Positions 1 to 35,124 of a DNA stretch of 38,696 nucleotides are shown here, piece by piece. The position numbers and the translations under genes are program-made. The number at the start of each line of letters is the position of its first letter. The stretch's first letter is position 1. The notes under the pieces are model-generated. The model worked only from the letters and a program-made list of their open reading frames with translations. It was not told the DNA's origin and searched no databases. Source of the DNA: Desulfobacteraceae bacterium (lineage in GTDB: Bacteria > Desulfobacterota > Desulfobacteria > Desulfobacterales > Desulfosalsimonadaceae); contig JAQIBZ010000577.1 in assembly GCA_027858815.1 (NCBI GenBank), positions 1 through 38,696 of the forward strand, written 5' to 3'.

Positions 1-224
1 TGCATGATTAACTGCAAAAAATCTTCCCCTTTCAGAGTGCGGTATCGTGTATCTCCGGTCTTGCTTTCAATATACTTAAAAGTGACCTGGCCGTTTTGAT
101 TGGAAACGATATTTTTTTCACTGATCACGCCCCGGTATAAATATTTGGATAAGTATTTCAGGGCGGTTATTCCGTTGCCCGCATGCCTGCAATCAACAAC
201 CCATTTGCCGGGCACGTTTTCAGG
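1..224 (-). pseudogene. IS91-family transposase, internal/C-terminal fragment (runs off the window start)
   Basis: Reverse-strand translation gives ...WKRIPENVPGKWVVDCRHAGNGITALKYLSKYLYRGVISEKNIVSNQNGQVTFKYIESKTGDTRYRTLKGEDFLQLIM, matching the typical IS91/Y2 transposase 'KWVVDCRH.G.G..ALKYLS.YLYRGVI' block. The N-terminal part is absent. Confidence 0.8.
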
Positions 225-692: not shown

Positions 693-2792
693 TTGTTTAA
701 GTTTACCAAAGCTTTTAAAAATTATCTGCCAGTATCATGCGATTGCCCTGCACCAAAATCTTTTCAAGATAAGTTAAAAGGAAAATATACAATTTGGGTT
801 TGTTTGATACTGACTTGCATGATATTTTTCAGTTACATGCAAGTTGTCAAATATGAATTTACGAATTTTGATGACGATAACTACGTTTATGCAAATCCCC
901 GCGTAACATCTGGCTTAACCGCTAAGAACATCGTCTGGGCATTTTCCTCTGCCCATTGTGCCAATTGGCATCCCATCACCTGGATATCTCACATGCTTGA
1001 TGTCGAAATTTATGGCATTAACGCCGGCGGTCACCATTTTACAAACTTGATTTTTCATGTTGCAAACACCATTTTGTTGTTTGTGTTTTTGAAAGGCGTA
1101 ACAGGCTCGTTTTGGTCCAGCGCATTGGTTGCGGCCTTATTCGCATTGCATCCATTGCATGTGGAATCCGTAGCATGGATATCGGAACGAAAAGATGTAT
1201 TGAGTACGTTTTTTGCGCTGCTTACGCTTATTTGCTATGGCTGGTATGGGATATATCGTATAAGTGTATGGTATCTGTCAGCTCTGCTTTTCTTTATTTT
1301 AGGATTAATGACAAAACCCATGCTTGTGACCCTTCCCTGCCTATTTTTATTGTTGGATTACTGGCCCCTCAGTCGCATTGATATTAAAAACGGATTTGAA
1401 TATAACTCATCGAGAGAATTCTCGTCAATTTCTTCATTGCTGTGGGAAAAAATACCGTTTTTCATGCTCGCTGCTTCATCTATCGTTATTACCTATTACG
1501 TTCAGCAAAGTGCAGGTGCAGTGTCGACTTACCAATTCCTTCCACTCGGAGAAAGGATATTAAATGCCTTAGTTTCATATGCGGCCTACATAGGTAAAAT
1601 GTTTTGGCCGGCCGGGCTTTCTGTTTTTTATCCCTATCCTGATTCTTTGGAGTTATGGAAAGCGAGTTTCTCCTTGGCATTGCTGACGGGAATCACCCTT
1701 TTTACAATTTGGCAAAGAAAACGTCGTCCATACTTACTTGTAGGTTGGCTCTGGTATTTTGGAATGCTTGTACCTGTAATCGGAATAGTGCAAGTTGGAG
1801 GCCAAGCAATGGCAGACCGATATATGTATATGCCGATCATCGGGCTGTTTATTATGATTTCTTGGGCAGGCTCGGATATTATGAAGCGGAAATTATTGAA
1901 ACCGATCTTCGCGGTCTTTTTGGTTACATTAGTATTGCTGATATTGATGGAAACTTCTAGAAGGCAAACCCGCCATTGGGTCAACAGTATCACGCTTTAC
2001 AATCATGCTTTGGCGGTTACTAATAATAATGAAACGGTTCACCTTAATCTCGGGAAAGCCCTGAACGACGCTGGCAAAAACTTCGAGGCCCGCAGACATT
2101 ATGAAGAAGCGCTCCGTATAAACCCGGACTTTGCTGATGCCCATCTAAACTTAGGAAGCTCCTTGCTTGATGAAGGACAAATCCGACAAGCAATCAATTA
2201 TTACAATCATGCTTTGAGATTGAAACCCGATATGGCTGCAGCTTACAACAACATCGGACTTGCACTTGTTCGCACAGGAAATTTAGAGAAAGCTATAACG
2301 TTTTTCAGAATCGCTTTGGAAAAAGATCCTGAAAACGCGGAGGCGACTATTAACTTAAAGTTGAGCAAGAATATCATGAATAAAATTTTTGAGACCGTAC
2401 GTTCTATGCGCAAAATCTTGTCAGCGGAAAACGCCAATTCACTTTCTTTGGATTTAGCTAAACTTTCTAAACGGAAAAAAGAGATGATGGAAACGGTCGA
2501 TTATTATCGAGACTCTTTGACAAAACAACCCGGCTTTAGCGGGCTCTCGGAATCTGATATACCAATTCTATTGGAAGTAATGCTAGAATATGAATGTTTG
2601 CTCCCCATAATGCTTAAAATAATCGATAATCAACCCGAGAATGGAGAGGCCTGTTACCATATCGCATGTATATATGCAAGGAAAGGTCAGTCGAGGAAAG
2701 CTGATTTATGGCTAAAACGAGCCATTAATGCCGCTCCCACCAAGCGTATTTTTTTCGAGTCGGATCCAGACATGATGAACTTGAAAAAATAA
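693..2792 (+). CDS. TMTC/PMT-like membrane glycosyltransferase with C-terminal TPRs
   Basis: 699 aa, TTG start. Many TM segments, FDDDNYV first-loop motif, HPLHVESVAWISERKDVLSTFF, GWLWYFGMLVPVIGIVQVGGQAMADRYMYMPIIG, then TPR-like repeats (HLNLGKALNDAGKNFEARRHYEEALRINPDFADAHLNLGSSLLDEG). Confidence 0.8.
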   Translation: MFKFTKAFKNYLPVSCDCPAPKSFQDKLKGKYTIWVCLILTCMIFFSYMQVVKYEFTNFDDDNYVYANPRVTSGLTAKNIVWAFSSAHCANWHPITWISHMLDVEIYGINAGGHHFTNLIFHVANTILLFVFLKGVTGSFWSSALVAALFALHPLHVESVAWISERKDVLSTFFALLTLICYGWYGIYRISVWYLSALLFFILGLMTKPMLVTLPCLFLLLDYWPLSRIDIKNGFEYNSSREFSSISSLLWEKIPFFMLAASSIVITYYVQQSAGAVSTYQFLPLGERILNALVSYAAYIGKMFWPAGLSVFYPYPDSLELWKASFSLALLTGITLFTIWQRKRRPYLLVGWLWYFGMLVPVIGIVQVGGQAMADRYMYMPIIGLFIMISWAGSDIMKRKLLKPIFAVFLVTLVLLILMETSRRQTRHWVNSITLYNHALAVTNNNETVHLNLGKALNDAGKNFEARRHYEEALRINPDFADAHLNLGSSLLDEGQIRQAINYYNHALRLKPDMAAAYNNIGLALVRTGNLEKAITFFRIALEKDPENAEATINLKLSKNIMNKIFETVRSMRKILSAENANSLSLDLAKLSKRKKEMMETVDYYRDSLTKQPGFSGLSESDIPILLEVMLEYECLLPIMLKIIDNQPENGEACYHIACIYARKGQSRKADLWLKRAINAAPTKRIFFESDPDMMNLKK

Positions 2793-2846
2793 AAGACAAT
2801 GTTTAACCCCATAGCCATATCAAACTAATCTTGAAATTGTATTCTC

Positions 2847-4460
2847 ATGATCAAGTTGGAATTTAGAAAAATACTATTGATTGTTGCACTCATTATTTCT
2901 GTGTTCTCCGTTTATGGACCTGCTTTTCATTTCAACTTTGTCAATTACGACGACCCGGCCTATGTCAGTAATAATGAGACTGTTAAGGAAGGAATCAGCT
3001 TAAAAAACGTTATATGGGCATTCACTACTTTTTCAAACAGCAACTGGCATCCTTTGACTTGGCTTTCCCATATGTTAGATGTGACGCTTTTTGGATTAAA
3101 TGCTGGATATCACCACCTTATAAATGTGGTGATTCACACCTGCAATACTCTTCTACTTTTTTGCTTGTTTTATTTGGTTACCCACCACACTTATAAAAGT
3201 TTGATTTTAGCAGCTTTTTTCGGGTTACACCCTATTCATGTGGAATCTGTAGCCTGGATTTCAGAACGTAAGGATTTATTGTGCGCCTTTTTCTGGCTTT
3301 CAGCTATGGTTGCTTATTACCGTTATACTCAAAAACCATCGCCTGAAAGGTATCTTATCTCATTTATACTTTTTATTTTTGGCGCACTATCCAAACCGAT
3401 GATGGTTACATTCCCCTTCGTCTTATTGCTGTTCGATTACTGGCCATTGAATCGGTATTTAGGTTCTGACCGTATTTCACATTATCATTTTACAAAGAGT
3501 CCGTGGGTATGGTTGATCATTGAAAAAATACCAATGATGCTTGTTACCATAATAATTAGTTATGTTGCATTACTTTCTCAATCCAAAGGCGGTTCGATAG
3601 CGGAATTGCCCATTATGGTGCGTTTCGCAAATGCGGTAATATCCTATCTTATTTATTTAAAAAAAATGATCTGGCCAGGAGAGCTGGCGGTCATATATCC
3701 TTTTCAAACACCTTCTTTATGGCTGGCCGCAGCCGGTTTCATAGCTATTGTATGCATTCTGATTATCTCTTTTACAGTTCGTAATAAGTATCCCTATGTT
3801 TTAGTCGGTTTTTTGTGGTTTTTCGGCACGCTTGTTCCCGTGATAGGTTTTATCCAGGTAGGTTCCCAGGCCTTGGCTGATCGATATACTTATATACCGA
3901 GTATCGGTTTTTTTGTGGCAGTTATTTGGGGAGGGGCATCTCTTATCAAACAGCTAATACCGGATAAATTTTTAAAGAAAGTAATCATTACGATAGTAAC
4001 GATGACCGCGTTGACATTGATGATGTTGTTATCATACAGTCAGGTGCGTTACTGGGAAAACAGCGTCACATTAATGACAAATGCCGTTCGCGTCACAGAA
4101 AACAATTATATCGCACATGAAAATTTGGGGCTTGCACTATCGGAATTGGGACTTCACGATAAAGCGTTATTCCATTTTAACCAGGTAATTACAATTAATC
4201 CCGATTATGCGCCAGCATATATGAATATTGGCAGTTATTATCTGCTTCATAAGCAATACAATAAGGCAGTCTCCTTTTACCAGAAAACGATTTCCCTGGA
4301 TCCCAGTCTTGTAAGATCCTATGCGCTGATGGGAAAAGCTTTGTCTGCGCTGGGAAAACAGGAAAAAGCGGCAATGTATTTTGAAAAAGTCCGTCAATTA
4401 AGTCCTGGTGAGGAAAGCTTACAAGCGTTGAGAAAGTTTGAACAATCCGAAAAGGATTAA
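2847..4460 (+). CDS. TMTC/PMT-like membrane glycosyltransferase with C-terminal TPRs (paralog)
   Basis: 537 aa; NYDDPAYV, HPIHVESVAWISERKDLLCAFFWL, GFLWFFGTLVPVIGFIQVGSQALADRYTYIPSIG, TPRs at the C-terminus. Confidence 0.8.
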   Translation: MIKLEFRKILLIVALIISVFSVYGPAFHFNFVNYDDPAYVSNNETVKEGISLKNVIWAFTTFSNSNWHPLTWLSHMLDVTLFGLNAGYHHLINVVIHTCNTLLLFCLFYLVTHHTYKSLILAAFFGLHPIHVESVAWISERKDLLCAFFWLSAMVAYYRYTQKPSPERYLISFILFIFGALSKPMMVTFPFVLLLFDYWPLNRYLGSDRISHYHFTKSPWVWLIIEKIPMMLVTIIISYVALLSQSKGGSIAELPIMVRFANAVISYLIYLKKMIWPGELAVIYPFQTPSLWLAAAGFIAIVCILIISFTVRNKYPYVLVGFLWFFGTLVPVIGFIQVGSQALADRYTYIPSIGFFVAVIWGGASLIKQLIPDKFLKKVIITIVTMTALTLMMLLSYSQVRYWENSVTLMTNAVRVTENNYIAHENLGLALSELGLHDKALFHFNQVITINPDYAPAYMNIGSYYLLHKQYNKAVSFYQKTISLDPSLVRSYALMGKALSALGKQEKAAMYFEKVRQLSPGEESLQALRKFEQSEKD

Positions 4461-4482
4461 AAAATGACTAAAGGATGATCGA

Positions 4483-6252
4483 TTGAAAAGCATTTCATTT
4501 CACAAAAAACTGAACAAGGATTTTCTTTACGTGTCAGGTCTTGTTTTGTTTTTGGGTATTTCAGTACTTTTAATATTTAAAGAGGTTTCCTCTTTCAAAT
4601 TTATTACCCTTGATGACTATACCTATATCGTTAATAATTTATTTATTCAAAAAGGGTTGAGCCTTGAAGGTATAAAATGGGCTTTTTCCGGTTCCATTAG
4701 TATGTATATACCGTTAACATTTATTTCTTATATGTTTGATTGGCAAATTTACAATGGATATTCCGGAGGGTTTCATTTTACTAATTTGGTACTCCATATG
4801 TTTAACAGTATCCTTCTCTTCACCGTATTAAAAAAATATACAAAAACATTATTGCCCAGTGTTTTTGTGGCCTTTTTGTTTGCTTTTCACCCGATTCATG
4901 TTGAATCAGTTGCCTGGGCTAGCGAACGCAAAGATGTTTTGAGCACCTTTTTTTTTCTCATTTCGATTTTTTTCTATCATCGTCAGATAAAAAAGCCTAA
5001 TACGCTCAATTCAATATTGGTCAGTTTAAGTTATTTGTTGGGACTATTATCAAAACCAATGCTTGTTACTTTTCCGTTTGTACTTCTTCTCTTGGATTAT
5101 TGGCCTCTGAATCGTTTCTGTCTCAATGTTCCAAGTATGAAGCAAAGGCACCAACTGAAATTTCATATATTAAGGTTTATAGAACTATTGCGAGAAAAAA
5201 CCTCTCTTTTTTTACTCTCAATCACGTTTAGCTTATTTATCTTAATGGCCCAAAGATCCCACGGAGGATTGGCTTCATTTCAAGTCATTCCTTTGAATAT
5301 ACGTATTGAGAACGCTATCTTATCTTATGCGATGTATCTGAAAAAATTATTCTGGCCCATTGATTTGGCGGTATTTTATCCTCATCCCATGGATACCATT
5401 TCAAATACTGCATTGGGAATATCTGTTTTACTGTTATTGGGAATAACGGTTTGGATAATTAAAGTTGGAAAAAAGTATCCTTATTTGCCAGTGGGTTGGT
5501 TTTGGTACCTGGGGACAATGATTCCGGTGACAGGTATTTCTCAATCCGGTATGCAGGCCATGGCTGACCGTTTCGCTTATATCCCTTTTATTGGATTATA
5601 TATTATACTTTGCTGGGGAACCTTTTCTCTAATCAATAGATTAAGCCCAAAATACAACTATTATGCTTATATTGGTCTAATTATCATTACCATTTCAGTA
5701 CTTATGGCTCTTACCCGCAGTCAGCTTGATCTTTGGCGTGACAGTGAAACATTGTATGCACATACGCTCAAGGTAACTCAAAATAATTATATAATGCATT
5801 ATGCCATGGGTGATATTTTCGCAAAAAAAGCCAATCTTCAAGAAGCAAAAAATCAGTTTCATAAAGCCGTTCAAATAGAGCCCCGATTTATCAATGCAAT
5901 ATTTTCTATTGGCAAAATCAATCAGATCGAGGGGAAACTAAAAGATGCCTTACTTATGTATTATCAGGTAATTGAACAGAGGCCGAATTATTATCCCGTC
6001 CATAAACAGTTAGGATATCTATGGTTGCAACTAGGCAATCTTGACAAAGCAATTTTTTATTTGCAAAATGCGGTTTCCATCAATCCTGAAAATGCGAAAT
6101 TGCATAATGATTTAGCTTCTGTTCTTTTAAATGAACAAAACATAGAGAAGGCTATTTTTCAGTTCAAAAAAGCGATAGAGCTGAAACCCAAAAATCAAGA
6201 GTATCAAAAAAATTATAAAAAAGCACTCAAGCTATCTTTATCAGGTAAGTGA
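4483..6252 (+). CDS. TMTC/PMT-like membrane glycosyltransferase with C-terminal TPRs (paralog)
   Basis: 589 aa, TTG start; TLDDYTYI, HPIHVESVAWASERKDVLSTFFFL, GWFWYLGTMIPVTGISQSGMQAMADRFAYIPFIG, several TPRs. Confidence 0.8.
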   Translation: MKSISFHKKLNKDFLYVSGLVLFLGISVLLIFKEVSSFKFITLDDYTYIVNNLFIQKGLSLEGIKWAFSGSISMYIPLTFISYMFDWQIYNGYSGGFHFTNLVLHMFNSILLFTVLKKYTKTLLPSVFVAFLFAFHPIHVESVAWASERKDVLSTFFFLISIFFYHRQIKKPNTLNSILVSLSYLLGLLSKPMLVTFPFVLLLLDYWPLNRFCLNVPSMKQRHQLKFHILRFIELLREKTSLFLLSITFSLFILMAQRSHGGLASFQVIPLNIRIENAILSYAMYLKKLFWPIDLAVFYPHPMDTISNTALGISVLLLLGITVWIIKVGKKYPYLPVGWFWYLGTMIPVTGISQSGMQAMADRFAYIPFIGLYIILCWGTFSLINRLSPKYNYYAYIGLIIITISVLMALTRSQLDLWRDSETLYAHTLKVTQNNYIMHYAMGDIFAKKANLQEAKNQFHKAVQIEPRFINAIFSIGKINQIEGKLKDALLMYYQVIEQRPNYYPVHKQLGYLWLQLGNLDKAIFYLQNAVSINPENAKLHNDLASVLLNEQNIEKAIFQFKKAIELKPKNQEYQKNYKKALKLSLSGK

Positions 6253-6360: not shown

Positions 6361-8487
6361 TTGAATTTTCGATTTAATTATCCAGAGAAAAATAAAGCAA
6401 TAAACTTATCTTTTTCTCTTCTTTTTTTTGGGTGTACCTTTCTGGTTTTTGCAGTACTTTTTATCCGGCAGCCCATTGAAGCAGTTGATACGGATTTGTG
6501 GTATCACTTAAACGGGGGAAGATATTTTTTCGATAATAATGAAATCGCTAGTAACAGTTTTTTTTCATTTCTTTCACCTGAGCGTATAAAAGTTAATTAT
6601 TATTGGCTTTTTCAGGTTTTGGTTTATAAAGTGTATTCTTTTTCAGGGTATCATGGCCTGATATTTTTGCGAGCTTTTGTCTTTTTATTAATTATTTCAT
6701 TGCTATATAGTTTTTTAGACAAAACGCAAAACCGAAAGCTGCTGCCATTTATTTTTATGTTGTTTGGGCTGTTGCTTTTAATGCGATGCCTGCTTGTCAG
6801 GCCGCATATTTTTTCATTTTTATTTCTAATTTTATTTATTTATATTCTTGAAATAGCCCCTCAAAAATCAATTTGTTTACCTTTTATTGGGTTATTATGG
6901 GTAAATATGCACGGCATCGCATATCCTGTGATGATATTGATCATAGTCTCCTATACTACCGGTATTTTTTATAAGAGAATTAAAAATAACGCCCCGCTTG
7001 ATAAAAAGCAAATTCTTCAGCTTCTTTTTCTCACATTTTCAATGTTAACTATTTTTGTTTCTCCTCATGGAACAAAATTACTGACGGTTCCTTTTATTTC
7101 GACAAAATATGCTTCCCAGTATATTCAGGAGCTGGGGGGAAGGGGTATGCATATCGCTGATTTCTTGACTTTTCACGTTACTAATCTGGCACCTTCACTG
7201 CAAACAATTTTTAATATTATTTTTTTAATGGTGATCAGTTCTGTAATTATAAAATCGTTTAAAAAGAAACTGCGAATCAGTCATATTTTACTTTTTGGGG
7301 GGGCAACCTTTTTGCTTATAAAAAGCAGCTCTCGATTTATGTATGAATTTTCATTGCTTTCTTTACCGTTGCTCAATACAAAAAACGTTTTCGTTCGCGA
7401 TGATAAAGTTTCATATATAAACAATTTCTTTTATTATTCCTGTTTTCTTGTACTTTTAATTTCCACGTATGGTCACGCTGCAAAGTATTTTTCAAACCCG
7501 CCCACATATCCTGTTTCCATGGTCGGATTACCAACGGGTATTTCTACTTTTTTAAAAAAGATAGACACAAAAGGAACTGTTTTAAATTTTCCTAATACTG
7601 GAGGGTATTTACAATGGATGCTTTATCCGGATTACCAGATTGCAATGGACATGGAAGTGCCTCACTTGTTTACTGACAAAGACTTTTTTTATGTTCTGAA
7701 TGCATTTTTTGATGATTCCGGTTTTAAAAATTTTTATGCTCAATATAATCCGTCTTACATTACCGTTCCGATTTATATTTATCTGAATTATAATATTTTG
7801 AAAAAATTTAGCCCGGAATATGTTTGCGTATTTTTTGATGATGCAGAAGCTCTTTTTGTAAATAAAGCAAAACTGCCAGAAATCGCTGATGAATTTGCAT
7901 TGACATTAGATCCCGCGTTGCTGGTAAATTTTGATATGTCGCTATTGCAGCGCGGTATTCAGAAAAACCATGAAATTATACAGGATCTTTTTCATGTTGA
8001 GACTATTTACCCAAACTGCAAAATGATCAACTGGGCAATTTCAAATATTTTCATTGATAAAAAAGAATATGATTCGGCTGAGAAATATGCATCTCGAATT
8101 ATACAGGATTTTCCTGACTCATATATTGGGTATAATTTATTGGGGGATATCAAATCATATGCTGAATTGTATAATGAGGCAATTTTAGATTACAAAACCG
8201 CCCTTGAGAAAACTGATGATTTGGATATCTATAAAAAATTGAGCGTTTGTTATGTCAAAATTGAAAATTACCAAAAAGCCTACCATACATTAAAAAAGGG
8301 ATTAGACATTTACTCAACAGAAATTCAACATGAAGATATTTTTAAACTTGGCTTGCTTGCACTGCAACTTAACAAAAAGGACGAAGCTCGAATGCTTATG
8401 GAATTTGCAGATTATAAAACGCCTGATAGTGAGACTGATTTGAAAAACCGGATTCAAATCATTTTAGATAACGCAAACGTTAATTAG
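6361..8487 (+). CDS. Multi-pass membrane protein with C-terminal TPR, probable GT-C-like protein
   Basis: 708 aa, TTG start; TDLWYHLNGGRYFF resembles the 'DPDLWWHL' membrane protein family; TPR-like C-terminus (YIGYNLLGDIKSYAELYNEAILDYKTALEK). Confidence 0.6.
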   Translation: MNFRFNYPEKNKAINLSFSLLFFGCTFLVFAVLFIRQPIEAVDTDLWYHLNGGRYFFDNNEIASNSFFSFLSPERIKVNYYWLFQVLVYKVYSFSGYHGLIFLRAFVFLLIISLLYSFLDKTQNRKLLPFIFMLFGLLLLMRCLLVRPHIFSFLFLILFIYILEIAPQKSICLPFIGLLWVNMHGIAYPVMILIIVSYTTGIFYKRIKNNAPLDKKQILQLLFLTFSMLTIFVSPHGTKLLTVPFISTKYASQYIQELGGRGMHIADFLTFHVTNLAPSLQTIFNIIFLMVISSVIIKSFKKKLRISHILLFGGATFLLIKSSSRFMYEFSLLSLPLLNTKNVFVRDDKVSYINNFFYYSCFLVLLISTYGHAAKYFSNPPTYPVSMVGLPTGISTFLKKIDTKGTVLNFPNTGGYLQWMLYPDYQIAMDMEVPHLFTDKDFFYVLNAFFDDSGFKNFYAQYNPSYITVPIYIYLNYNILKKFSPEYVCVFFDDAEALFVNKAKLPEIADEFALTLDPALLVNFDMSLLQRGIQKNHEIIQDLFHVETIYPNCKMINWAISNIFIDKKEYDSAEKYASRIIQDFPDSYIGYNLLGDIKSYAELYNEAILDYKTALEKTDDLDIYKKLSVCYVKIENYQKAYHTLKKGLDIYSTEIQHEDIFKLGLLALQLNKKDEARMLMEFADYKTPDSETDLKNRIQIILDNANVN

Positions 8488-8543
8488 TGCGTTAATTGCT
8501 TTCGCATAACACAAGGTACGAAAATGGCCACTGTGATAGTTCT

Positions 8544-8569
8544 AATTTATCTTATCCCCCCGATAAATT
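8544..8569. repeat. Hairpin aatttatc-N10-gataaatt
   Basis: 8-bp perfect stem (8544-8551 / 8562-8569) in the intergenic region between two GT-C genes. Confidence 0.45.
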
Positions 8570-8722
8570 CCACTCCGATAGGCAATGTTACAGAATATAT
8601 TCCTTGAAATTGAGGTGGAAAATATGCGGAAAATAAAAGGTTGCAACCGTATGTTGTTGTGACTATTTTTTTCGTTTTATTACTCAGCAACCTGAATGTC
8701 GTGATTTAGATAAGGTATTAAT

Positions 8723-10381
8723 ATGAAGTTATTAAAGTACTCCCGGCAAAAAGGCAATTTAGCATCATTTTATTTTGAGTCTGGATTTTCTTTAAGGCTG
8801 ACTTTGGTTTTTTTAAGCGCAATCATATTTATATATATCTTACTAAGAGTGAATCTTATCAATATTCCGCTGGATCGGGATGAAGGGGTGTTTGGCTATA
8901 TTGGACAAGTTATCAATGATAACGGAATACCGTATGTAGATGCCATTGACCATAAACCCCCTATTGTCTTTTATATTTATGCTTTTGCGCTTAAATTTTT
9001 TCCTCCAAGTGCGAAAGGGGTCCATCTGTTTCTGCACTTATATAACTTTCTGACACTTATTGTTCTTTTTTTTGTCGTAGATATTTATTCAAAATCAAGG
9101 CTTATGGCATTATGGACAGTATCTGCATATGCAGTTATTAGTTCTAGTCCTATAGTTCAGGGTTTTACAGCTTCAACAGAAATGTTTATGCTTTTACCCA
9201 TTTCGCTTTCTCTTCTATTTATTGTTTTAGCAATTCAAAAAGAAAGGCTTTATTATTTTATTTTAAGCGGGGTTTGTGGTGCTTTGTCCTTTTGGATAAA
9301 GCAAACCGGTGCATTCATCATTTTATTTGTTGTTTTATATTTTATCAATGTATTGACCTGGAGAGTTCTTCGGAAAGAAAAATCATTATTAGATTTTATG
9401 AGAGATATTCTTTTATGGGGATCGGGATTTATTTTTATTTCGGTGTTGATCGCTGGTTATTTTTATTTCAACAATGCATTTAATGAATTTGTGTATTGGA
9501 GTTTCACACACAGTTTTTTTTATAGTCAAAAAAGCAGTATATTTTTGATGTGGCCGATAATATCCCAGACTCTTAAGGATCTTTTTACAGGAAATTTTAT
9601 GATCATACTTCCTGGCATTGCCGGGTGCTTGATTATGGTTAAACAAAAGGATAAAAGAGGAATATGGGCTTTGTCTTTTTTATTGTTTTCATTTCTTGCG
9701 ATATGTCCGGGATACGCATATTGGCATTATTTTGCGCAATTATTGCCCGCGCTTTCTGTTACCAGTGGAATCGGAACTGTTTATCTTCTTCAATTTATTC
9801 CCAAGAAATCCAGAAGTGCCTTTTTAACGCTTATTATCTGCTCCATTATATTTGTACCTTTTTTGGTTCATTACAATTATTATGTTAGAAATTCCCCGGA
9901 AGAAAATATCAGGGATCTTTTTAAGGGCAATCCTTTTCAGGAATCAATCGAATTGGGAAAATATATAAAAGAACAAACCACAGATAAAGATACGATTTTT
10001 ATTTTTGGTTCGGAGGCTCAAATATTTTTTTACTCAGAAAGAAAAAGCGCAACTGCTTTTGCTTTGATTTATCCTCTGCTTACCAGCTTTCCGAAATATA
10101 TGGAATTTCAGCATAAGGCATGGAAAGATATTGAACAAAATGACCCCAAGTATATTATTTTTATAGAGATTCAATCAACATTGTCGTATGATGGTAAAGC
10201 CGATTTGTGGATTGTGAGAAAAATCCGAGAGCTAATATCAACTAAATATGAGTTAGAGGCGGTCATGACAATTGATACCCCAAAAGGCAGGATTCTAAAA
10301 AAATCTGAATTGTTTGAAACCAAGAATACATTCAATCATCAACAATTTCCGATCAAAATTTTTCGTAAAAAAGAAAATTAA
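8723..10381 (+). CDS. ArnT/PMT_2-like GT-C glycosyltransferase
   Basis: 552 aa multi-pass protein; IPLDRDEGVFGYIGQVINDNGIPYVDAIDHKPPIVFYIYA matches the first-loop DxDEG...KPP pattern of GT39/GT83-like enzymes. Confidence 0.75.
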   Translation: MKLLKYSRQKGNLASFYFESGFSLRLTLVFLSAIIFIYILLRVNLINIPLDRDEGVFGYIGQVINDNGIPYVDAIDHKPPIVFYIYAFALKFFPPSAKGVHLFLHLYNFLTLIVLFFVVDIYSKSRLMALWTVSAYAVISSSPIVQGFTASTEMFMLLPISLSLLFIVLAIQKERLYYFILSGVCGALSFWIKQTGAFIILFVVLYFINVLTWRVLRKEKSLLDFMRDILLWGSGFIFISVLIAGYFYFNNAFNEFVYWSFTHSFFYSQKSSIFLMWPIISQTLKDLFTGNFMIILPGIAGCLIMVKQKDKRGIWALSFLLFSFLAICPGYAYWHYFAQLLPALSVTSGIGTVYLLQFIPKKSRSAFLTLIICSIIFVPFLVHYNYYVRNSPEENIRDLFKGNPFQESIELGKYIKEQTTDKDTIFIFGSEAQIFFYSERKSATAFALIYPLLTSFPKYMEFQHKAWKDIEQNDPKYIIFIEIQSTLSYDGKADLWIVRKIRELISTKYELEAVMTIDTPKGRILKKSELFETKNTFNHQQFPIKIFRKKEN

Positions 10382-10512
10382 ATATTTATTGAGTTCCTGA
10401 AATTAAACAAATATCATTCTCGATATGATTCATTAATCTGTATAATTGCCTTTTGACTATCTAAAATACGTGTCATGCATAGTGAAAAAGCGGACAAAAT
10501 AAATCGTTGTGG

Positions 10513-10527
10513 CCTGCCATAGGCAGG
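10513..10527. repeat. Perfect hairpin CCTGCC-ATA-GGCAGG upstream of the GT2 gene
   Basis: Directly read: cctgcc ata ggcagg. Confidence 0.6.
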
Positions 10528-10553
10528 TTTAAATGAGAGATTAGGGGTATTCG

Positions 10554-11357
10554 ATGGCATCCGATTTACAAACAACGATCATTATTCCTTGTTATAATGA
10601 AGAAAAACGGTTACCCACTGAAAAATTGCTGAAATTTTTGGATCAAACAGTAAATATAGGGTTTTTACTAGTCAATGATGGTAGCTTAGATAAAACGGCA
10701 AGGTTAATAGATGATTTAGGCAGGAAAAGGCCTGAAAAAATTAAGACCTTTCATCTTAGGTCCAACCAGGGGAAAGGCGAGGCGGTTAGACTGGGATTGC
10801 TCAAGGCCATGGAGAATGAGTCCAGGATTGTTGGATATTGGGATGCAGATTTGTCGGCACCATTATGTGAAATCCTGCGCCTGCAACAAATACTAGAGAT
10901 GCGTCGAACGCTAGACGCGGTAATTGGGGCACGGGTTAAACTGATCGGGCGCAGAATTGACCGCACAATCTGGCGTCATTATGTAGGGAGAACAATTGCA
11001 ACTATAATTTCAATAGTTTTGCTTTTGCCAGTTTATGATACTCAGTGTGGTGCTAAATTATTCAGAGTTTCTCCAAGACTAAAAAACGTGATGGAAGAGC
11101 CGTTTTTGACCCGATGGCTTTTTGATGTCGAAATATTTGCCAGATCCTTACTGTCATTTGCGACTTATGGAAATGTGAGCCTGACTTTTTATGAAGAGCC
11201 ATTGGAAAGCTGGACCCATGTCGGTAACTCTAAGATTGGACCCACCGATCTTCCGATTATCATTAAAGAATTATGTCAGATTTGGTACAATTATACCCTG
11301 AAACTCCGCCGGATAAAAAAGTCCACAGGTTCACAAATGGAAGATGGGTTATCCTAA
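10554..11357 (+). CDS. Family 2 glycosyltransferase, dolichyl-phosphate glucosyltransferase (ALG5)-like
   Basis: [58 protein letters not shown]. Confidence 0.85.
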
Positions 11358-11860
11358 ATCATTTTCTTTTTCGCCGCAATCGCCGCCTGGGCTACTGCCA
11401 GCCTTGCAATGGGCAATCGAAACGGAGAGCAGCTCACGTAATTAAATCCGGTTTTAAAACAAAATTCAACCGAGGCCGCATCTCCGCCGTGTTCACCGCA
11501 GATACCGATTTTCAGGTTCGGTCGGGTCGCGCGCCCTTTTTCGACCGCCATTTGTATTAAAGCCCCCACACGCCCTCGATATCCAGAGTCTGAAACGGGT
11601 CATTTTTGATAATTTTCTTATCAAGATAATCATCCATGAATCCGCCGATATCATCCCGGCTGAATCCAAGATGGGTTAAATCGTTGGTGCCGAACGAGAA
11701 AAATTCAGCGGTTCCCGCCATTTTGTCGGCCAGTAAGGCAGTCCGGGGAATTTCAATCATTGTCCCGTATTGGTAATCGATTTTATTAATCTCAATCTTG
11801 GAAGGATTATCCGGAATATAATCCGTTAACTCAAGCTTTTTTGCAATAGTCTTTTCGGGT
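11354..11860 (-). pseudogene. ppdK: Degraded C-terminal fragment of pyruvate, phosphate dikinase
   Basis: Two frames: [69 protein letters not shown] and ...[70 protein letters not shown]. They are joined by a +2/-1 frameshift (GAG GGC GTG [TG] GGG GCT TTA). Expected LTQMTFGFSRDD is shortened to LTHLGFSRDD. Confidence 0.9.
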
Positions 11861-12140
11861 GGGGGTCAAATAAAATATGGTGATATTTGAAGTAATAATA
11901 ACCTAATGAATTTAATTAAATTTTTTACTTTTTGATTGAAAGTTTGAAAGGTTTATGTATAATTGAATCCTGTTGTTGATAAGAGATGAATTGTATGATG
12001 ACAAAAAATGTCAGCAAAAACCTATTTTTGTCAAATTTTTTACCTGATGACTTTGAAAACAATGTTTTGATCTGTGAATACTATTTTTATTTGTATTCTT
12101 TTTAGATGCTTAAAATAAAAATAGATAATGATTTAATTTT

Positions 12141-12156
12141 TGGCACATCCATTGCT
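12141..12156 (+). promoter_or_regulatory. Sigma-54 (RpoN) -24/-12 promoter upstream of the first pilin
   Basis: TGGCAC-atcca-TTGCT matches the consensus TGGCAC-N5-TTGCW with correct spacing, about 155 nt upstream of the pilin ATG. Confidence 0.85.
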
Positions 12157-12311
12157 TCTTTATAAATTACATTTATTTTAAAACTTATAAAAAAAGGAAG
12201 GGGGGGATAAAATACATTCAATCAGTAAATTCAATACAATTGAAAAAAAAACACACACATCACACCAAATGGTTTTTTAAACCAAACTCAATATAAAAAA
12301 GGAGAATAACT

Positions 12312-12695
12312 ATGTTGAAGAAACTTAGAGGAAACACTAAAGGTTTTACACTGATCGAACTGATGATCGTTATTGCCATCATCGGTATTTTGGCTGCCAT
12401 CGCCATCCCGAACTTCATCGCTTATCGTAACAAATCTTTCTGTTCAACTGCTGAATCAGATGCCAACTCCATTGCCGGCGGCATCGCAGATTATTTTGCT
12501 ATCCCGCAACGTACAACTAATCCGACAGACGCGGCGATGGTTGGTATCACTATAGCAAATACCAACGGAGTTGCCGGTGATATCAATACCACCCTGACCA
12601 TTACGGTACAAGATGACAGCAAGCGTTGCCCGGACGATTATCAAGGTGCCAGCGATTATTGGGCCAGCAATGTTTTTACAAAATACATCCGGTAA
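12312..12695 (+). CDS. Type IV pilin (major pilin-like) with N-terminal prepilin peptidase site
   Basis: [41 protein letters not shown]; 127 aa; AAAGGAG ribosome-binding site; two cysteines (precursor residues 44 and 106). Confidence 0.95.
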   Translation: MLKKLRGNTKGFTLIELMIVIAIIGILAAIAIPNFIAYRNKSFCSTAESDANSIAGGIADYFAIPQRTTNPTDAAMVGITIANTNGVAGDINTTLTITVQDDSKRCPDDYQGASDYWASNVFTKYIR

Positions 12696-12749
12696 GTTGT
12701 TTAACGAATTTACTATTTGTTAATGTAAATTAAATATTTTTGAGTTGTA

Positions 12750-12784
12750 AAAGGAGAGGAGAAGCAATTCCCTCTCCTTTTTTT
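12750..12784 (+). terminator. Rho-independent terminator after the first pilin
   Basis: Stem aaaggagagg (12750-12759) / cctctccttt (12771-12780), loop agaagcaattc, T tract through 12784. Confidence 0.9.
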
Positions 12785-12803
12785 ATAAATTTGTTGAATA
12801 ATC

Positions 12804-14921
12804 ATGCCAATGATCTATAAAGCAAATAAATCCAAGCTACCGGCAGTCTTTTTATTACTGGCGCTAATTATCGGTGTCTGCTATTCAAACACCCTTAATG
12901 CCTCCTGGCATTTCGATGATTATCCAAACATCATAAATAATCCCGGTCTGCACCTGGAACATATTTCCATTGACGCCATTTGGAACTGTTTTTTCAATGC
13001 TACACCGTCGGGGGGGACTTTTCGTCCAATTGCTTACCTGACGTTTGCATTTAACTGGTTTACTGGAGGCACTCAGGTCGTTGGATATCATGTGATCAAC
13101 ATCCTCGTCCATATGCTTGCTGCGTTTTTTCTTTTTTTAACCATTCAACAAATATTAACAACACCCAATATTACCTGTGATTTACAGAAGAACGCATTTT
13201 CCATTGCCTTGCTCACTTCTGTCGTGTGGGCAGTTCATCCCATTCAAATACAGGCTGTAACCTATATCGTGCAGCGTATGACATCCATGGCTGCCCTTTT
13301 TTTTATCCTATCTGTGTGGGCCTATCTTTCCGGTCGAACGTCTTCAATTCCCTACAAAAAAACTTTATGGTATCTTGGATGTTTTCTTTCATGGACCTTG
13401 GCTGTTCTCACCAAACAAAATACAGTCACGCTGCCGCTTATTTTGCTGCTGCTGGAGTTTATATTTTTCCAAAACTGGCGGTCTCCTATGGTAAAGCGAT
13501 GCTATTGGGGTATTATCATTGTCGGTGTGCTGGTTTTGATTGCCGGAATATGTTTTTTGATTATCAATGGGGACGCCGGACCATATATGGGGAAATATCA
13601 AATACGGCCTTATACACCTATTGAGCGCTTGTTAACTCAGTTTCGGGTGGTGTTATTTTATCTTTTTCAGATTGTTTATCCGGTTCCTGGTAATTTCAGC
13701 ATTACGCATGATTTTATGATTTCAAGGTCATTACTTAATCCATGGACCACGCTGCCGGCCATTGGGGTAGTTCTGGGAATGGTATCGGTTTCAGTATGGG
13801 CGATATCCAAAGGTCCATTTTTGAAAATTATGGGTTTTTCGATTCTGTTTTTTTCAATTAACCATTTGATCGAATCTACTATTTTACCGCTGGAAATGGT
13901 GTTTGAACACCGTAATTATTTACCTTCATTTTTTTTGTTTATACCTTTTGCCATTGGCATAAATAAGGCCTTTGATATTTATCATAAACAAAGCAAACCC
14001 ATGTTTTATTTTCTGGTGCTTTCTACATGTGCACTCTTAATCAGCATGGGTATCAGCACCTATCTACGAAACATGGACTGGCAATCAGAAAAGACTTTAT
14101 GGCAGGATGCCATGAAGAAAGCCCCCCATTCCTCTCGCCCCCCCCATAATATAGCATTAGGGTATTATGAGCCTGCCGGAATGTATAATCAGGCAATAGA
14201 CCTCTATCATCACGCATTAGAATTAAATGATGAATCAATCGGATTTGAATCGACAATTTTTTTCAACATTGCGGCAATTTATTTCTCATCATTGCAAGAC
14301 TATGAGAAAACAATTGAATATGCTTTTAAGGCCCTCCAGATAGACAGAAACCATGACCGTGCACTCTATTTGCTGGCAAGATCTTTGGCCGAACTTGGGC
14401 ATTATGGAGACGCGTTGAATGTAATAGCGCCTCGTCTTCATAAAAAGAATACAAGCCCTGCAAATATGCACCTTAACGGTTTAATTTTGCTTAACCTATC
14501 ACAACCGGAGACGGCCTTGGTATGTTTCCAAAAATGCATGGCTCGAGATCCGGGCAACTGGCTATATCTGCGGGAAATCGGTTTTGCGTTGTCTGCCATG
14601 GAAATGCAGAATAGGGCGCGCTGGTTTTTTCGTCGTGCCAATGCATTATATCCAAATCAGCCAGAAATTTTGCTGGGCAGAGCTGCCGTCAATCTTGAAT
14701 ACGGATTGTTGAAAAAAGCTGAAACAAATGTCGAACAGTTTATTCTCAGCATTGGTATAGACAACGTTGAAAACTACTGGGTGAATGCAAGCGCTGCTCC
14801 ACTGGGGTTGCCGATTCCCTACTCACGACTTACCCCAATGATTTGCCGTTTTTTATTTAACCAGTCCGAAGGTTATGCTAAGATGTCTCAACGATTATTA
14901 AATATTTTTAGTGAAAAATAA
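12804..14921 (+). CDS. Divergent TMTC-like TPR membrane glycosyltransferase located between two pilin genes
   Basis: 705 aa; HFDDYPNI first loop, HPIQIQAVTYIVQRMTSMAALFF (variant of HPLHVESVAWISERKD), VFEHRNYLPSFF (equivalent of ADRYMYMP), TPR C-terminus. Confidence 0.75.
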   Translation: MPMIYKANKSKLPAVFLLLALIIGVCYSNTLNASWHFDDYPNIINNPGLHLEHISIDAIWNCFFNATPSGGTFRPIAYLTFAFNWFTGGTQVVGYHVINILVHMLAAFFLFLTIQQILTTPNITCDLQKNAFSIALLTSVVWAVHPIQIQAVTYIVQRMTSMAALFFILSVWAYLSGRTSSIPYKKTLWYLGCFLSWTLAVLTKQNTVTLPLILLLLEFIFFQNWRSPMVKRCYWGIIIVGVLVLIAGICFLIINGDAGPYMGKYQIRPYTPIERLLTQFRVVLFYLFQIVYPVPGNFSITHDFMISRSLLNPWTTLPAIGVVLGMVSVSVWAISKGPFLKIMGFSILFFSINHLIESTILPLEMVFEHRNYLPSFFLFIPFAIGINKAFDIYHKQSKPMFYFLVLSTCALLISMGISTYLRNMDWQSEKTLWQDAMKKAPHSSRPPHNIALGYYEPAGMYNQAIDLYHHALELNDESIGFESTIFFNIAAIYFSSLQDYEKTIEYAFKALQIDRNHDRALYLLARSLAELGHYGDALNVIAPRLHKKNTSPANMHLNGLILLNLSQPETALVCFQKCMARDPGNWLYLREIGFALSAMEMQNRARWFFRRANALYPNQPEILLGRAAVNLEYGLLKKAETNVEQFILSIGIDNVENYWVNASAAPLGLPIPYSRLTPMICRFLFNQSEGYAKMSQRLLNIFSEK

Positions 14922-14946
14922 ACTGATCTTTTGATCGGGAGGAAAA

Positions 14947-15336
14947 ATGTCTGATAAATATATCATAAAGAGATCAAAAGGGTTTACATTAATAGAACTT
15001 ATGATTGTCGTTGCAATTATCGGCGTTTTAGCATCTATAGCAATCCCAAATTATATAAATTATCGAAATAAGGCCTACTGTAGTGAAGCAGAAACCAATG
15101 CCAATCAGATCGGCTCTGCCATTGCCGATTATTTCGGCAATGGCAACCGGGTCAACCTACCCACTGTCGACGACCTGAGAATAAAGTTAAAATTCGCTAA
15201 TCCGGGGGGTATTCAGGGTGATCCCAACTTAACGATTTCCATCCTGATAACTGATCGTACTGGCAGATGCCCGAAAGAATACCAGGAAGCCCAAGAGCAA
15301 TGGTCCAATAATGTGTTTACCAAATATGTCCGATAG
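14947..15336 (+). CDS. Second type IV pilin
   Basis: [45 protein letters not shown]; 129 aa; aligns with the first pilin including both Cys (45, 108) and the C-terminus W(S/A)(N/S)NVFTKY(V/I)R. Confidence 0.95.
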
Positions 15337-15548
15337 TTGTTATGAGATAGTTCAACCAGAGCCAAATCCATAAAAGAATTGATTCCCATTGGCTTTATGT
15401 GTTCGGAAGATGAGAATTCTATGCTTTTTTTTAAGAAACCTGCCCAAAAATCAGTCCGATAAAAAGATTTGGCCCGCTTACTTTTTCCATGACTTTTTAG
15501 CCAGCTGAATTGGGACAGCCCAATCTTGACATTTAAGATTGAAAGGGA

Positions 15549-16271
15549 ATGATGAACCAGAAAAAATCTGATATTAATGATATCCTGCTAAGTGTTGTGA
15601 TCCCGGCATATAATGAAGAAGAAACCATCATGGAAATTATTGATCGGGTTTTGGATTCACCGTTTAAAAAGGAAGTAATTGTGGTTGACGACGGGTCAAC
15701 AGACAATACCCGTCATATTTTATCTAAAATTGAAAATTCAGTCATCAAAGTCATCTTTCATGAAAATAACGCAGGCAAGGGCAGCGCTGTGCAAACAGGA
15801 TTTGATGCCGCCACTGGCGATATTATTGTGATTCAGGATGCGGATCTTGAATATAATCCGGATGAGTATCCAGTGCTTCTCAACCCCATATTATCCGGTA
15901 ACGCAGATGTGGTTTATGGTTCCAGATTCGGCGGGCATGGTGAACACCGGGTGTTGTATTTCTGGCATTATGTGGGCAACCGCTTTCTCACGTTGCTTTC
16001 AAATATGTTTACAGATCTGAATCTGACCGACATGGAAACCTGCTATAAGGCATTCTCCCGCCAGGCCCTCCAGGGAATTCGAATCAATGAAAAACGGTTC
16101 GGTTTTGAACCGGAGATTACCGCATATATAGCGAAAAAAAAGCTTCGCATTTATGAAGTGCCGATTTCATATTACGGCCGGACCTATGAAGAAGGGAAAA
16201 AAATCAATTGGAAAGATGGCTTTCGCGCCTTGTGGTGCATTTTTAAATACAATCTTTTTATCCGGCAATGA
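15549..16271 (+). CDS. Family 2 glycosyltransferase, polyprenyl-phosphate sugar synthase (DPM)-like
   Basis: [81 protein letters not shown]. Confidence 0.88.
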
Positions 16272-16284
16272 AAACCCATATAAC

Positions 16285-18102
16285 GTGAAAGCAACTGTTT
16301 TTAATCAAGAAAAATTTTATAATTCAAGCCGATTTATTTTTTATTTATTTCTGGCCGCGTTTGCTTTGCGCATCGGTTTTTTTGCGGTAATGCGCGATTA
16401 TCCCCTCCTTTATATACAAAGCCTTGATGAAAAGTATTATGTGGATCTTGGCAAAATCATTGCCAGTGGTTCCCTTAGAGGCGAGCAAGGCGCTTTTTTC
16501 ATGGACCCTATGTATGGCTACTTTTTGGGGTTCATTTTTTTTGTATTTGGCGATAACCTTACCATCGTCCGGCTCATTCAGATATTGCTGGATGCCTTTA
16601 ATGTGGTTCTCATTTTCGCCATTGGCCGCAGGGTATGGGACCAGTGGGCTGGAATAGTTGCAGCGATCATTTGGGCCGCTTATATTGTTTCGTTTTATTA
16701 TACGCTGTTGATGCTCAAAGTCACCCTGGCGATAACAGGGCTTCTTGTATTCATGCTGTTGCTTTTAGTCGTCATTAAAAACCAGCGAAAGACGTCATGG
16801 TTTTTGACTGGTATGGGAGCGGGGATATTAAATTTTATTAGCGCGAATTTCATATTAATGATCCCGCTGACGCTGGTGTTTTATTGTTTCATTGAACGAC
16901 CCAAATGGCGAAGTTTTATAATCAATAGCGCTTTTGTTTTGGCGGGGGCCATGACGTTGCTATCAATAAATGGTATCCGCAATTATTTCGTGGCCGGTCA
17001 TCCCGTATTTTTAAATACCTCCTCTGGCCTGATACTGTATTCTTCAAATAATCCGGGTAACACTTCCGGCCTGTTTGATGTGCCAGCTTTTGCGCAATCC
17101 CATCCGGTTTCTTGCCAAGATGATTTTCTTAAAGAAGCGGAACGTAGAACCAGCAGGTCTTTGTCCCCCAAAGAGGCATCAATTTTCTGGCGAAACGCAA
17201 CATTCCGCGTATTAAAAGACAATCTGCAAATTATTCCGGTTCTCATTTTAAATAAGCTGAAATGGACTTTTGCAAACTATGAAATTACCATGAACCAGCC
17301 CTATCAGTTTGTTGCAAACTTCGCAGGGACGAATAAATGGCCGTTTCCCAATTATGCATTTGTGCTCGCCTTCGGATTACCTGGGCTGGCCATCGGCATT
17401 TCAAGGAGGAAACAGGTCGGGTGGCTGCTGGTTCCAGTATTGGTTATTCTGGCCACATTGATGATTTTTTACGTCTGCACCCGTTTCAGAATGCCAATGG
17501 TGCCGTTTCTGGTGATTGGAACAGGTATCTGTTTGCGGATAGCATTCGTTTGGGTCAAAGAAGGCAATTGGCGGAAAATTATTTTACTGGGCCTTGTTTC
17601 ATCAACGATTTTTTTGGTTTCCATGTCTATTTCGCCGCCTTCAGGTGACGGGTATAAGGAATTTGTGCTGGCAAAGGCATTTTACTCGCAGAACCATCAC
17701 GATAAAGCCGAAGCGTATGCTGTGAATGCGTTAAAAAAATATCCCGATAATTTGGATTTGCATATTCTGCTCGGACGTATTGCCACTAAAAAAGGTCTGA
17801 TTAATGAGTCAATTATGTATTATCAGGGCGCCATGAAAATCACCCCTGACAATTTTACCGTTAATTATGATCTGGCGATGATTCATATGGATTCCGGCAA
17901 GCCTGAACTAGCCATTCCTTATTTCGAAAAATGTTTAACGCTTAACCATCATATCCAAAGTATGTTTCATCTGGCCCGGGCGTATGAGGCCTGCGGCAAC
18001 AACCGGCAAGCTATCAAATATTATAGGGAGTTTTTGGAGTCAGCAAGCCCTGATGATCCGGGGCGTGAATATGCGAAAAAGCGATTAGCCGTCATAAGAT
18101 AG
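16285..18102 (+). CDS. GT39-like membrane glycosyltransferase with C-terminal TPRs (likely GTG start at 16285; the ORF track starts upstream at 16153)
   Basis: Multi-pass N-terminus (LDEKYYVDLGKIIASGSLRGEQGAFFMDPMYGYFLG), TPR C-terminus. The first residues of the 16153 ORF overlap the upstream GT2 in another frame; GTG AAA GCA ACT at 16285 follows the GT2 stop at 16271. Confidence 0.75.
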   Translation: MKATVFNQEKFYNSSRFIFYLFLAAFALRIGFFAVMRDYPLLYIQSLDEKYYVDLGKIIASGSLRGEQGAFFMDPMYGYFLGFIFFVFGDNLTIVRLIQILLDAFNVVLIFAIGRRVWDQWAGIVAAIIWAAYIVSFYYTLLMLKVTLAITGLLVFMLLLLVVIKNQRKTSWFLTGMGAGILNFISANFILMIPLTLVFYCFIERPKWRSFIINSAFVLAGAMTLLSINGIRNYFVAGHPVFLNTSSGLILYSSNNPGNTSGLFDVPAFAQSHPVSCQDDFLKEAERRTSRSLSPKEASIFWRNATFRVLKDNLQIIPVLILNKLKWTFANYEITMNQPYQFVANFAGTNKWPFPNYAFVLAFGLPGLAIGISRRKQVGWLLVPVLVILATLMIFYVCTRFRMPMVPFLVIGTGICLRIAFVWVKEGNWRKIILLGLVSSTIFLVSMSISPPSGDGYKEFVLAKAFYSQNHHDKAEAYAVNALKKYPDNLDLHILLGRIATKKGLINESIMYYQGAMKITPDNFTVNYDLAMIHMDSGKPELAIPYFEKCLTLNHHIQSMFHLARAYEACGNNRQAIKYYREFLESASPDDPGREYAKKRLAVIR

Positions 18103-19837: not shown

Positions 19838-19854
19838 CAGGTTTTATGAAGTTT

Positions 19855-21582: not shown

Positions 21583-21919
21583 TGATTATAGCTTATACTT
21601 TTTTTATCATTTGAGACGATTTCAATAAAGCAAAACAGGTATTACAATGCATCCAGCGGATAAATCGATAACCCGTCTAAATGTGAAGGTTTATATAACA
21701 ATTGTCTTACGGTCTTCAAGATAAATCATCCACAAGATGGATTCAGGATGTCATTTTTTTTGATCGACGTAGGACATCAAACGTTTTTAGAGTCAGCATG
21801 TTAACTTGTCATAAATGGATTAAAAAAGTCTATCAAGTTTTGATGAAAACTATTAAAAAGATGAGTATTGCCCTGTTTTTTGTTTTAATTATTAATGAAA
21901 GCTGAATAACCTTATTCCC

Positions 21920-22660
21920 ATGCATGAAAAAATTATTTGCTGTTTGCCCACCTACAATGAAGCGGAAAACATTGCGGCAATCGTCAATGCCATTCTCCGT
22001 TTCGTTCCTCAATCATCCATTTTGATTATCGATGATCATTCTCCTGATGGAACTGGACAGATAGCCGATACGCTTTCTCACCAGGACTCTCGTATTTCTG
22101 TGCTCCATCGCCCGCAAAAGGAAGGTCTGGGAAAAGCGTATTGTCATGGTTTCCAAGTTGCTCTCGACCGGATGAAAGCGGATATTATAGTGCAGATGGA
22201 TGCGGACCTGTCCCATCCGCCGGAAAAACTCCCTGAAATGATAGACGCTATTCAAATGAATGATTTAGTGATCGGTTCCCGTTATATTCCAGGTGGTGGC
22301 ACGAAAAACTGGAATATGGCCCGTCGCATGATCAGCCGTTTTGGCGCTATCTATGCAAGAGTGTGGCTGGGTTTACCAGTCAATGATCCTACCGGCGGAT
22401 TTAAGGTTTGGCGAAGTGATCTGCTCAAACATGTGCTGGCTTGTCCCGTCAGATCGGAAGGATATGGTTTTCAGGTAGAAACTACCTTTATTGCCCGCTG
22501 TCTCGGTGCGCGCATCGTGGAAATTCCTATCTGTTTTTCGGACCGCCATGTGGGGCGGAGCAAAATGACAGCCGGAATTGCGTTTGAAGCATTTTGGCAG
22601 ATACCATTCATGCGGGTTCGTTGCCGTTATTTAAAGAAAAAATCAGGCTGTTATGAATAA
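21920..22660 (+). CDS. Family 2 glycosyltransferase, DPM1-like
   Basis: KIICCLPTYNEAENIAAIVNAIL, LIIDDHSPDGTG, QMDADLSHPPEKLP, GSRYIPGGGTKNW, NDPTGGFKVWR, FSDRHVGRSKM. Confidence 0.9.
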   Translation: MHEKIICCLPTYNEAENIAAIVNAILRFVPQSSILIIDDHSPDGTGQIADTLSHQDSRISVLHRPQKEGLGKAYCHGFQVALDRMKADIIVQMDADLSHPPEKLPEMIDAIQMNDLVIGSRYIPGGGTKNWNMARRMISRFGAIYARVWLGLPVNDPTGGFKVWRSDLLKHVLACPVRSEGYGFQVETTFIARCLGARIVEIPICFSDRHVGRSKMTAGIAFEAFWQIPFMRVRCRYLKKKSGCYE

Positions 22661-24332: not shown

Positions 24333-24585
24333 AAATATGACTGCGATCATCCATTCCGGTTCAGAGTAAGTTTATCGGGGCAAAAGCTTATCACGGGTAA
24401 GGGACAAAATTATTTTTGGTGCTTGCGCATGATCGTCCCTTCGGTCATGAACGATTACCTGAAAATTTAGGAATAACCAACCGAGGTATCACTACTTGTT
24501 TTTTTGATATCAATGATTTAATTTTGGATTATTTTTAGAGAATGCATGAAAGAATATTTACTTTTCTTGTGGAGGCACAACAACA

Positions 24586-32846: not shown

Positions 32847-32871
32847 AAATGACATAAAGTTATATAATTAA

Positions 32872-35072: not shown

Positions 35073-35124
35073 ACGATATTGACGATATTTATACATCCGA
35101 TAGAGACAGTGGAATCCGACTAAT

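Follow-up and report, generated by a model that had tools for sequence, protein, structure and literature searches.

Putative TMTC-related glycosyltransferases with tetratricopeptide tails at a type IV pilin locus of a Desulfobacteraceae bacterium

The window analysed here is a stretch of 38,696 nucleotides (contig JAQIBZ010000577.1, assembly GCA_027858815.1) from a Desulfobacteraceae bacterium. It carries three consecutive genes, A, B and C, and a fourth, D, each encoding a membrane core followed by a tail of tetratricopeptide repeats (TPRs). Our preferred reading, with a probability of about 0.55, is that A–D are glycosyltransferases of fold type C (GT-C) that depend on polyprenyl-phosphate sugars and belong to a variable pilin-glycosylation island. 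Type IV pilins would be their likeliest acceptor class because A–D flank a pilin-glycosyltransferase-pilin cassette that is conserved in the genus. In this mechanism, family 2 glycosyltransferases (GT2) of the island would load a sugar onto polyprenyl phosphate, and the lipid-linked sugar would be flipped to the periplasmic side. There the inner-membrane GT-C core would move one sugar from its carrier to a secreted protein. A pair of aspartates in the first loop would form the catalytic or metal site, K183 and R346/Y349 (numbering of B) would hold the phosphate, and the periplasmic TPR tail would hold or choose the acceptor protein. The link of the A–D family to pilin loci is what this analysis adds to an earlier annotation made from the window's letters (the sequence-only reading).

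That reading had described three adjacent TMTC-like genes and a fourth at 22653, with common motifs and with TPR regions that vary in length and sequence, and this description was borne out (Table 1). All four genes lie on the plus strand, with gaps of 54 bp between A and B and 22 bp between B and C; TTG is the start codon of A and C, and the precise starts are uncertain. The similarity of B to A, C and D (E <= 1e-93) excludes chance. In the alignment of A–D, the motifs DD, HP-x-HVE-x-VAW-xx-ERK, K-xM-x-VT, Y-xx-Y-xx-K and AD-R-xx-Y are invariant. Across about 188 relatives, the acidic first periplasmic loop typical of GT-C enzymes is retained as DD (D35 100%, D36 99% of 187 members), and the per-residue conservation is 93/99/99/82% for ERK(D), 100/90/97/96% for KPMxxT and 98/98/99/100% for ADRxxY. 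When the two domains were aligned separately, divergence was not uniform: pairwise identity among A–D is 36–42% in the membrane core and 19–35% in the TPRs. The C-terminal TPR array is supported by Pfam hits over the cut-off in all four proteins and by the AlphaFold2 model of B. In the scanned libraries, the only labels for A–D come from their TPRs or from a weak match to PMT_2 (over the cut-off in D, E 3.7e-7), and in the PHROGs and NCBIfam scans the matches were confined to the TPR region.

The GT-C fold, which had also been proposed from the letters, is supported by structure prediction. An AlphaFold2 model of B, built on an alignment of 109 members, reached a predicted local distance difference test score of 94.4 for the full protein and 94.8 for the core alone, and its predicted helix number is in the right range for the 11 transmembrane helices of TMTC. 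A fold search with full-length B was dominated by TPR matches and uninformative, and it was redone on the core alone. The credible hits of the core in the Foldseek search against the PDB were GT-C enzymes, namely STT3, PglB, AglB, Pmt4, ArnT, EmbB, AftA, ALG6 and DPY19. The best E value was 3e-4 and the TM-scores by query length were mostly 0.38–0.58 for the main hits, which for a predicted model indicates the same fold at a long distance. Thus, the core shares its fold with PMT/POMT (GT39; Pmt4 9i5k, E 5.5e-4) and ArnT (GT83; 5ezm), yet it matched no PDB chain in a sequence search; among the matches listed for the full alignment, only TPR-type proteins appeared. Compared with PMT/POMT, the family has a TPR tail in place of the MIR domain, and DD instead of DE.

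TMTC1–4 (GT105) are protein O-mannosyltransferases of animals, and TMTCs serve cadherins. The proposed likeness to TMTC was upheld as kinship and failed as strict membership. In hhalign comparisons, the A–D family profile matched bacterial proteins positive for PF08409 (DUF1736) over the whole core (E 1.4e-36, 379 columns), whereas two other GT-Cs of the window gave no match (probability 0.2). A PF08409 search of the own genome returned none; control genomes were equally without a match, so the phylum was searched instead, and true DUF1736 proteins above the cut-off were found in 3 of 148 genomes (loci L134, L135, L136, L170 and L171; here and below, L, G and C denote loci, genomes and contigs). 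These bacterial proteins carry the TMTC-like segments YRPLTVLS, HTEAV..GRA, LLSKE, LSADYS and AERLLYLP. A–D share with them and with TMTC1–4 the GT-C core followed by a TPR tail, the first-loop DD, RxD (here ERKD) in loop EL2, the K and T of KExxxT, and (E/D)RxxY in loop EL5. We compared the family with the TMTC motifs M1–M7 as defined previously (PMC7801869). M1 (DD), M3 (RxD, with its D in 82%) and M7 ((E/D)RxxY, with D for E) are present. In M4, KE(T/Q)xxT, the K and T are kept and E is replaced by P in 90%; in M5, the DW of loop EL4 (DYS in the bacterial forms) gives way to xYP; and NWHPLTW stands where TMTC has SHKSYRP. PF08409 matched none of 75 family members at E <= 0.01 and was absent among the listed hits of A–D at E <= 1, and PMT_2 matched 42 of the 75. 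With a profile that matches DUF1736 proteins and not the two other GT-Cs, yet with no DUF1736 match and with altered M4 and M5 motifs, the A–D family is best classified as sister to TMTC.

The sequence-only reading gave no hint of how large this family is. The own genome (4.85 Mb, 663 contigs) holds six full copies and one fragment. Strong matches were present in 19 of 40 sampled relatives and equally in 39 of 76 genomes drawn evenly across the order. The hosts span Desulfobacterota, Planctomycetota, Verrucomicrobiota, Nitrospirota and Acidobacteriota, among others, and tandem arrays are common and recur in relatives.

The evidence for pilins as acceptors comes from gene neighbourhoods. A short type IV pilin is the third commonest neighbour family after GT2 and other GT-C genes, and the commonest non-enzyme one, at a median distance of 233 bp. 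The linked pilins are mostly directly upstream of the member on the same strand, and in locus L110 the order pilin-glycosyltransferase-pilin-glycosyltransferase has intervals of about 13 and 25 bp. Desulfonema magnum, a cultured species, carries an array with a pilin at a distance of about 2.2 kb (L056). The 115 loci surveyed held 15 pilin genes in the 227 kb that lie at most 1 kb from a member, and 9 in the remaining 816 kb. Among 40 loci taken from the order-wide search irrespective of pilins, six had a pilin within 500 bp, against about 0.13 expected from a genomic N_methyl density of about 1 per 330 kb (about 115 genes in 38 Mb of nine genomes, most of them chosen for having pilin linkage). 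In seven of nine genomes, most again chosen for linkage, the pilin near the glycosyltransferase gave the strongest N_methyl match in the genome. Furthermore, the 17 pilin-linked members in the tree require 16 changes, and therefore the linkage arose repeatedly and independently.

In the window itself, two pilin genes enclose a distant cousin of A–D, the GT-C gene at 12804, which hhalign aligned to the family with a probability of 98.8 (E 1.2e-16, 381 columns). This pilin-glycosyltransferase-pilin cassette is kept in genomes G004, G006 and G008, where the counterparts of the 12804 gene lie beside a pilin at 37–57% identity. In G004 and G008 it is followed by a VKOR/DsbA gene, a PMT-type GT-C and a GT2 with 68–75% identity to the genes at 24586, 25760 and 28058, so that the glycosyltransferase between the pilins is more divergent than the other cassette enzymes. 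The cassette looks like the major-pilin locus of the genus. In the window, a stretch of about 9 kb containing D interrupts it, and a block with A–C precedes it. The pilin locus of G006, from the same genus, contains a gene 56% identical to B, and in G006, G001 and G002 family members occur on the upstream side of the pilin, separated from it by a pyruvate-phosphate-dikinase gene. From this synteny, A–D-type genes appear to be carried as accessory cargo by a conserved pilin locus. Both pilins have a cysteine pair, and a VKOR-DsbA fusion (24586–25767) sits in the same cassette; because of these pairs, the fusion may be a disulfide oxidase dedicated to pilins. A Y2 (IS91-type) transposase remnant (3–215, minus strand; PF04986, E 2.7e-15), with an 18-bp inverted repeat beside it (398–459), lies just upstream of A, and these elements are a possible route by which the glycosyltransferase cargo entered the locus.

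Several observations weigh against pilins as the acceptors. About 93% of the members have no pilin gene beside them, among them entire arrays, for example the one on contig C42 of G008, and direct adjacency is limited to 17 members and the cousin at 12804. A–D lie inside the pilin island without adjoining a pilin, A–C being 6 kb from the nearest one with other glycosyltransferases between. The pilin cassettes of G004 and G008 have no A–D-type genes. In addition, when intervals within the same loci serve as the reference, the enrichment of pilins is modest (p = 0.0097). The same enzymes might instead glycosylate non-pilin proteins that are secreted or at the surface, in a broad or mixed O-glycosylation, and we regard this alternative as possible, if on balance unlikely. 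It would accommodate the low share of pilin-linked members in the tree (about 7%) and the occurrence of DUF6160 proteins near members in three loci, and the TPRs of TMTCs have been proposed to recruit protein domains, acceptor choice by TPRs being only a proposal for TMTC too (PMC11292533). By contrast, the rank and short distance of pilins among the neighbours and the independent recurrence of the linkage favour pilins. As a separate observation, the DUF6160 proteins (PF19657), for example L149:4010–4852 and L138:10972–12063, are a possible alternative acceptor or partner.

The donor side of the preferred reading, in which A–D serve a pilin-glycosylation island, depends on the neighbouring GT2 genes. 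Dol-P-Man synthase, ArnC and GtrB load sugar onto polyprenyl phosphate. The GT2 gene at 21920, which overlaps the start of D, had the Pyrococcus furiosus Dol-P-Man synthase 5MLZ as its sole PDB match at E <= 1e-10 (1.6e-32), and the GT2 type common near family members also matches Dol-P-Man synthase, ArnC and GtrB. In 29 of 93 loci, a GT2 gene was found close to a member. A GT2 of the Dol-P-Man-synthase type is seldom a close neighbour (3 of 132 loci), which also speaks against our reading and rules out that type as a general partner of the family. Therefore, mannose is argued for D only, as the donor sugar that the match at 21920 suggests. Pairs of GT2 and GT-C genes also typify Gtr or three-component systems, and the island runs on into pseudaminic-acid-type and flippase-like genes. 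A–D might be polysaccharide-modifying GT-Cs that add side branches to lipid-linked O-antigen or capsule, with TPRs that hold other biosynthetic proteins. We find this quite improbable: the closest profile relatives are TMTC-like proteins with TPR tails, a protein-glycosylating family, the Pfam scans placed no Gtr-type flippase beside A–D, and the linkage to pilins runs counter to it.

The sequence-only reading had taken the TPR variation as fitting separate acceptor specificities after duplication, that is, a local tandem triplication followed by specialisation of the tails. In its favour, A–C are adjacent on one strand, the tails diverge more than the cores, and real tandem duplications do exist in the family: the four-gene array on C42 of G008 forms one clade, joined in a second tree by the own-genome copy on contig C489, and the pair in G036 is a genuine tandem duplication. 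Nevertheless, the four genes A–D do not come together in the tree. The sister of B is a gene from a different species of the genus (support 100), A pairs weakly with a gene from another family, its nearest in the tree being G036 L140_5088 (support 90), and both C and D sit on long branches. Forcing A, B and C into one clade was rejected by the approximately unbiased test (p-AU 0.0022), with long branches as a caveat. At fourfold sites, identity between A–D is at chance level; synonymous changes are saturated, and therefore the ratio of nonsynonymous to synonymous rates is meaningless for these genes. Conservation of the tails is about 20 points below that of the cores in 19 tandem and 30 other pairs alike, and a first impression of extra tail divergence in tandem copies failed this comparison of independent pairs (p = 0.42). 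Therefore, the quicker evolution of the tails belongs to the family as a whole and by itself gives no pointer to duplicates having specialised for acceptors; it is also explained by a weaker constraint on the TPRs. The cluster A–C was in all probability assembled from old, distinct family members without recent triplication, and the proposal of triplication and specialisation is very improbable. Separately, the tandem pair in L107 (820–2733 and 4398–6131) has cores that are 83% identical and tails that are 49% identical, with a fourfold-site identity of 0.80 in the core and 0.35 in the tail, which suggests gene conversion of the core or exchange of the tail.

Searches of the open literature turned up the TMTC motif paper and reviews, and gave no account of the A–D family as pilin glycosyltransferases. 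This absence does not prove novelty, and bacterial entries may already be listed under GT105 in CAZy. In Pseudomonas aeruginosa, TfpO and TfpW are known pilin-linked glycosyltransferases; as in our window, a glycosyltransferase gene is tied to the major pilin gene and the accessory genes of the locus differ between strains (PMC11841053). In its description of the locus, that source mentions no TPR tail for TfpW. In the cable bacteria Candidatus Electrothrix, a gene cluster combines PilA and TPR proteins with two sugar-modifying enzymes, the TPR proteins being described there as putative protein-interaction proteins and not as GT-Cs (PMC10580974). By analogy, this cluster would fit the picture of pilin glycosylation. 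More broadly, TMTC-like GT-C/TPR proteins might be a widespread, unnamed class of bacterial pilin glycosyltransferases with swappable tails, from which the cadherin mannosyltransferases of animals derive; we consider this extension doubtful. TPR-GT-C genes abound in environmental bacteria, and tying the A–D family to major pilin loci supplies a testable substrate. The A–D family also offers a bacterial model for acceptor choice by TMTC through TPR repeats. The pili of sulfate-reducing and related bacteria would, on this evidence, be glycosylated and variable surface structures, and a pilin locus with swapped glycosyltransferase cargo resembles the pilin accessory variation of Pseudomonas, which affects phage susceptibility (PMC11841053).

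Table 1. Genes A–D and other features of the pilin island in the window (aa, amino acids; ORF, open reading frame).
Feature	Position	Strand	Description and evidence
Gene A	693–2792	+	699 aa; TMTC-like GT-C core, residues ~36–430; TPR tail ~270 aa; ORF, TPR hits, core alignment
Gene B	2847–4460	+	537 aa; TMTC-like GT-C core, residues ~1–406; short tail of ~3 TPR repeats, 134 aa
Gene C	4483–6252	+	589 aa; TMTC-like GT-C core; TPR tail 171 aa; long-branch paralogue
Gene D	22653–24332	+	559 aa; fourth copy; TPR tail 165 aa; 5' end overlaps preceding GT2 gene by 8 bp
Type IV pilin 1	12312–12695	+	PilA-like, 127 aa, two Cys; N_methyl E 8e-10; conserved across genus
GT-C with TPR between pilins	12804–14921	+	Distant TMTC-like, different subfamily; hhalign to A–D family
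Type IV pilin 2	14947–15336	+	PilA-like, 129 aa, two Cys; N_methyl E 5.4e-10
GT2	15549–16271	+	Polyprenyl-phosphate glycosyltransferase-like; best PDB hits 5MLZ (2.9e-21), ArnC, sll0501/GtrB
PMT_2 GT-C with TPR tail	16153–18102	+	PMT_2 E 1.5e-11 plus TPR
GT2	21920–22660	+	Dolichol/polyprenyl-phosphate mannose synthase-like; overlaps D start; PDB 5MLZ match
VKOR-DsbA-like thiol oxidase	24586–25767	+	Conserved cassette; VKOR E 3.5e-27, thioredoxin/DSBA; 69–72% identity in G008/G004
PMT-type GT-C	25760–27451	+	Conserved cassette; PMT_2/PMT; 68–71% identity in G004/G008
GT2	28058–29005	+	Conserved cassette; Glycos_transf_2; 73–75% identity in G004/G008

Further GT-C or GT-C-like genes of the island start at 8723, 12804, 16153, 18116, 19855, 25760 and possibly 6361. 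Together with A–D they bring the total to about eleven in 27 kb (6361–18102 and 18116–27451 beside A–D), an unusual density. The gene at 6361–8487 was considered as an extra member of the A–D family and was ruled out, having no profile match. Five genes at 30733–36174 encode a Polysacc_synt_2 dehydratase, a DegT aminotransferase, a cytidylyltransferase, a fused glycosyltransferase-28-like and GNAT protein, and a NeuB with a SAF domain; from these predicted products, the group reads as a complete pathway of the CMP-pseudaminic/legionaminic type.

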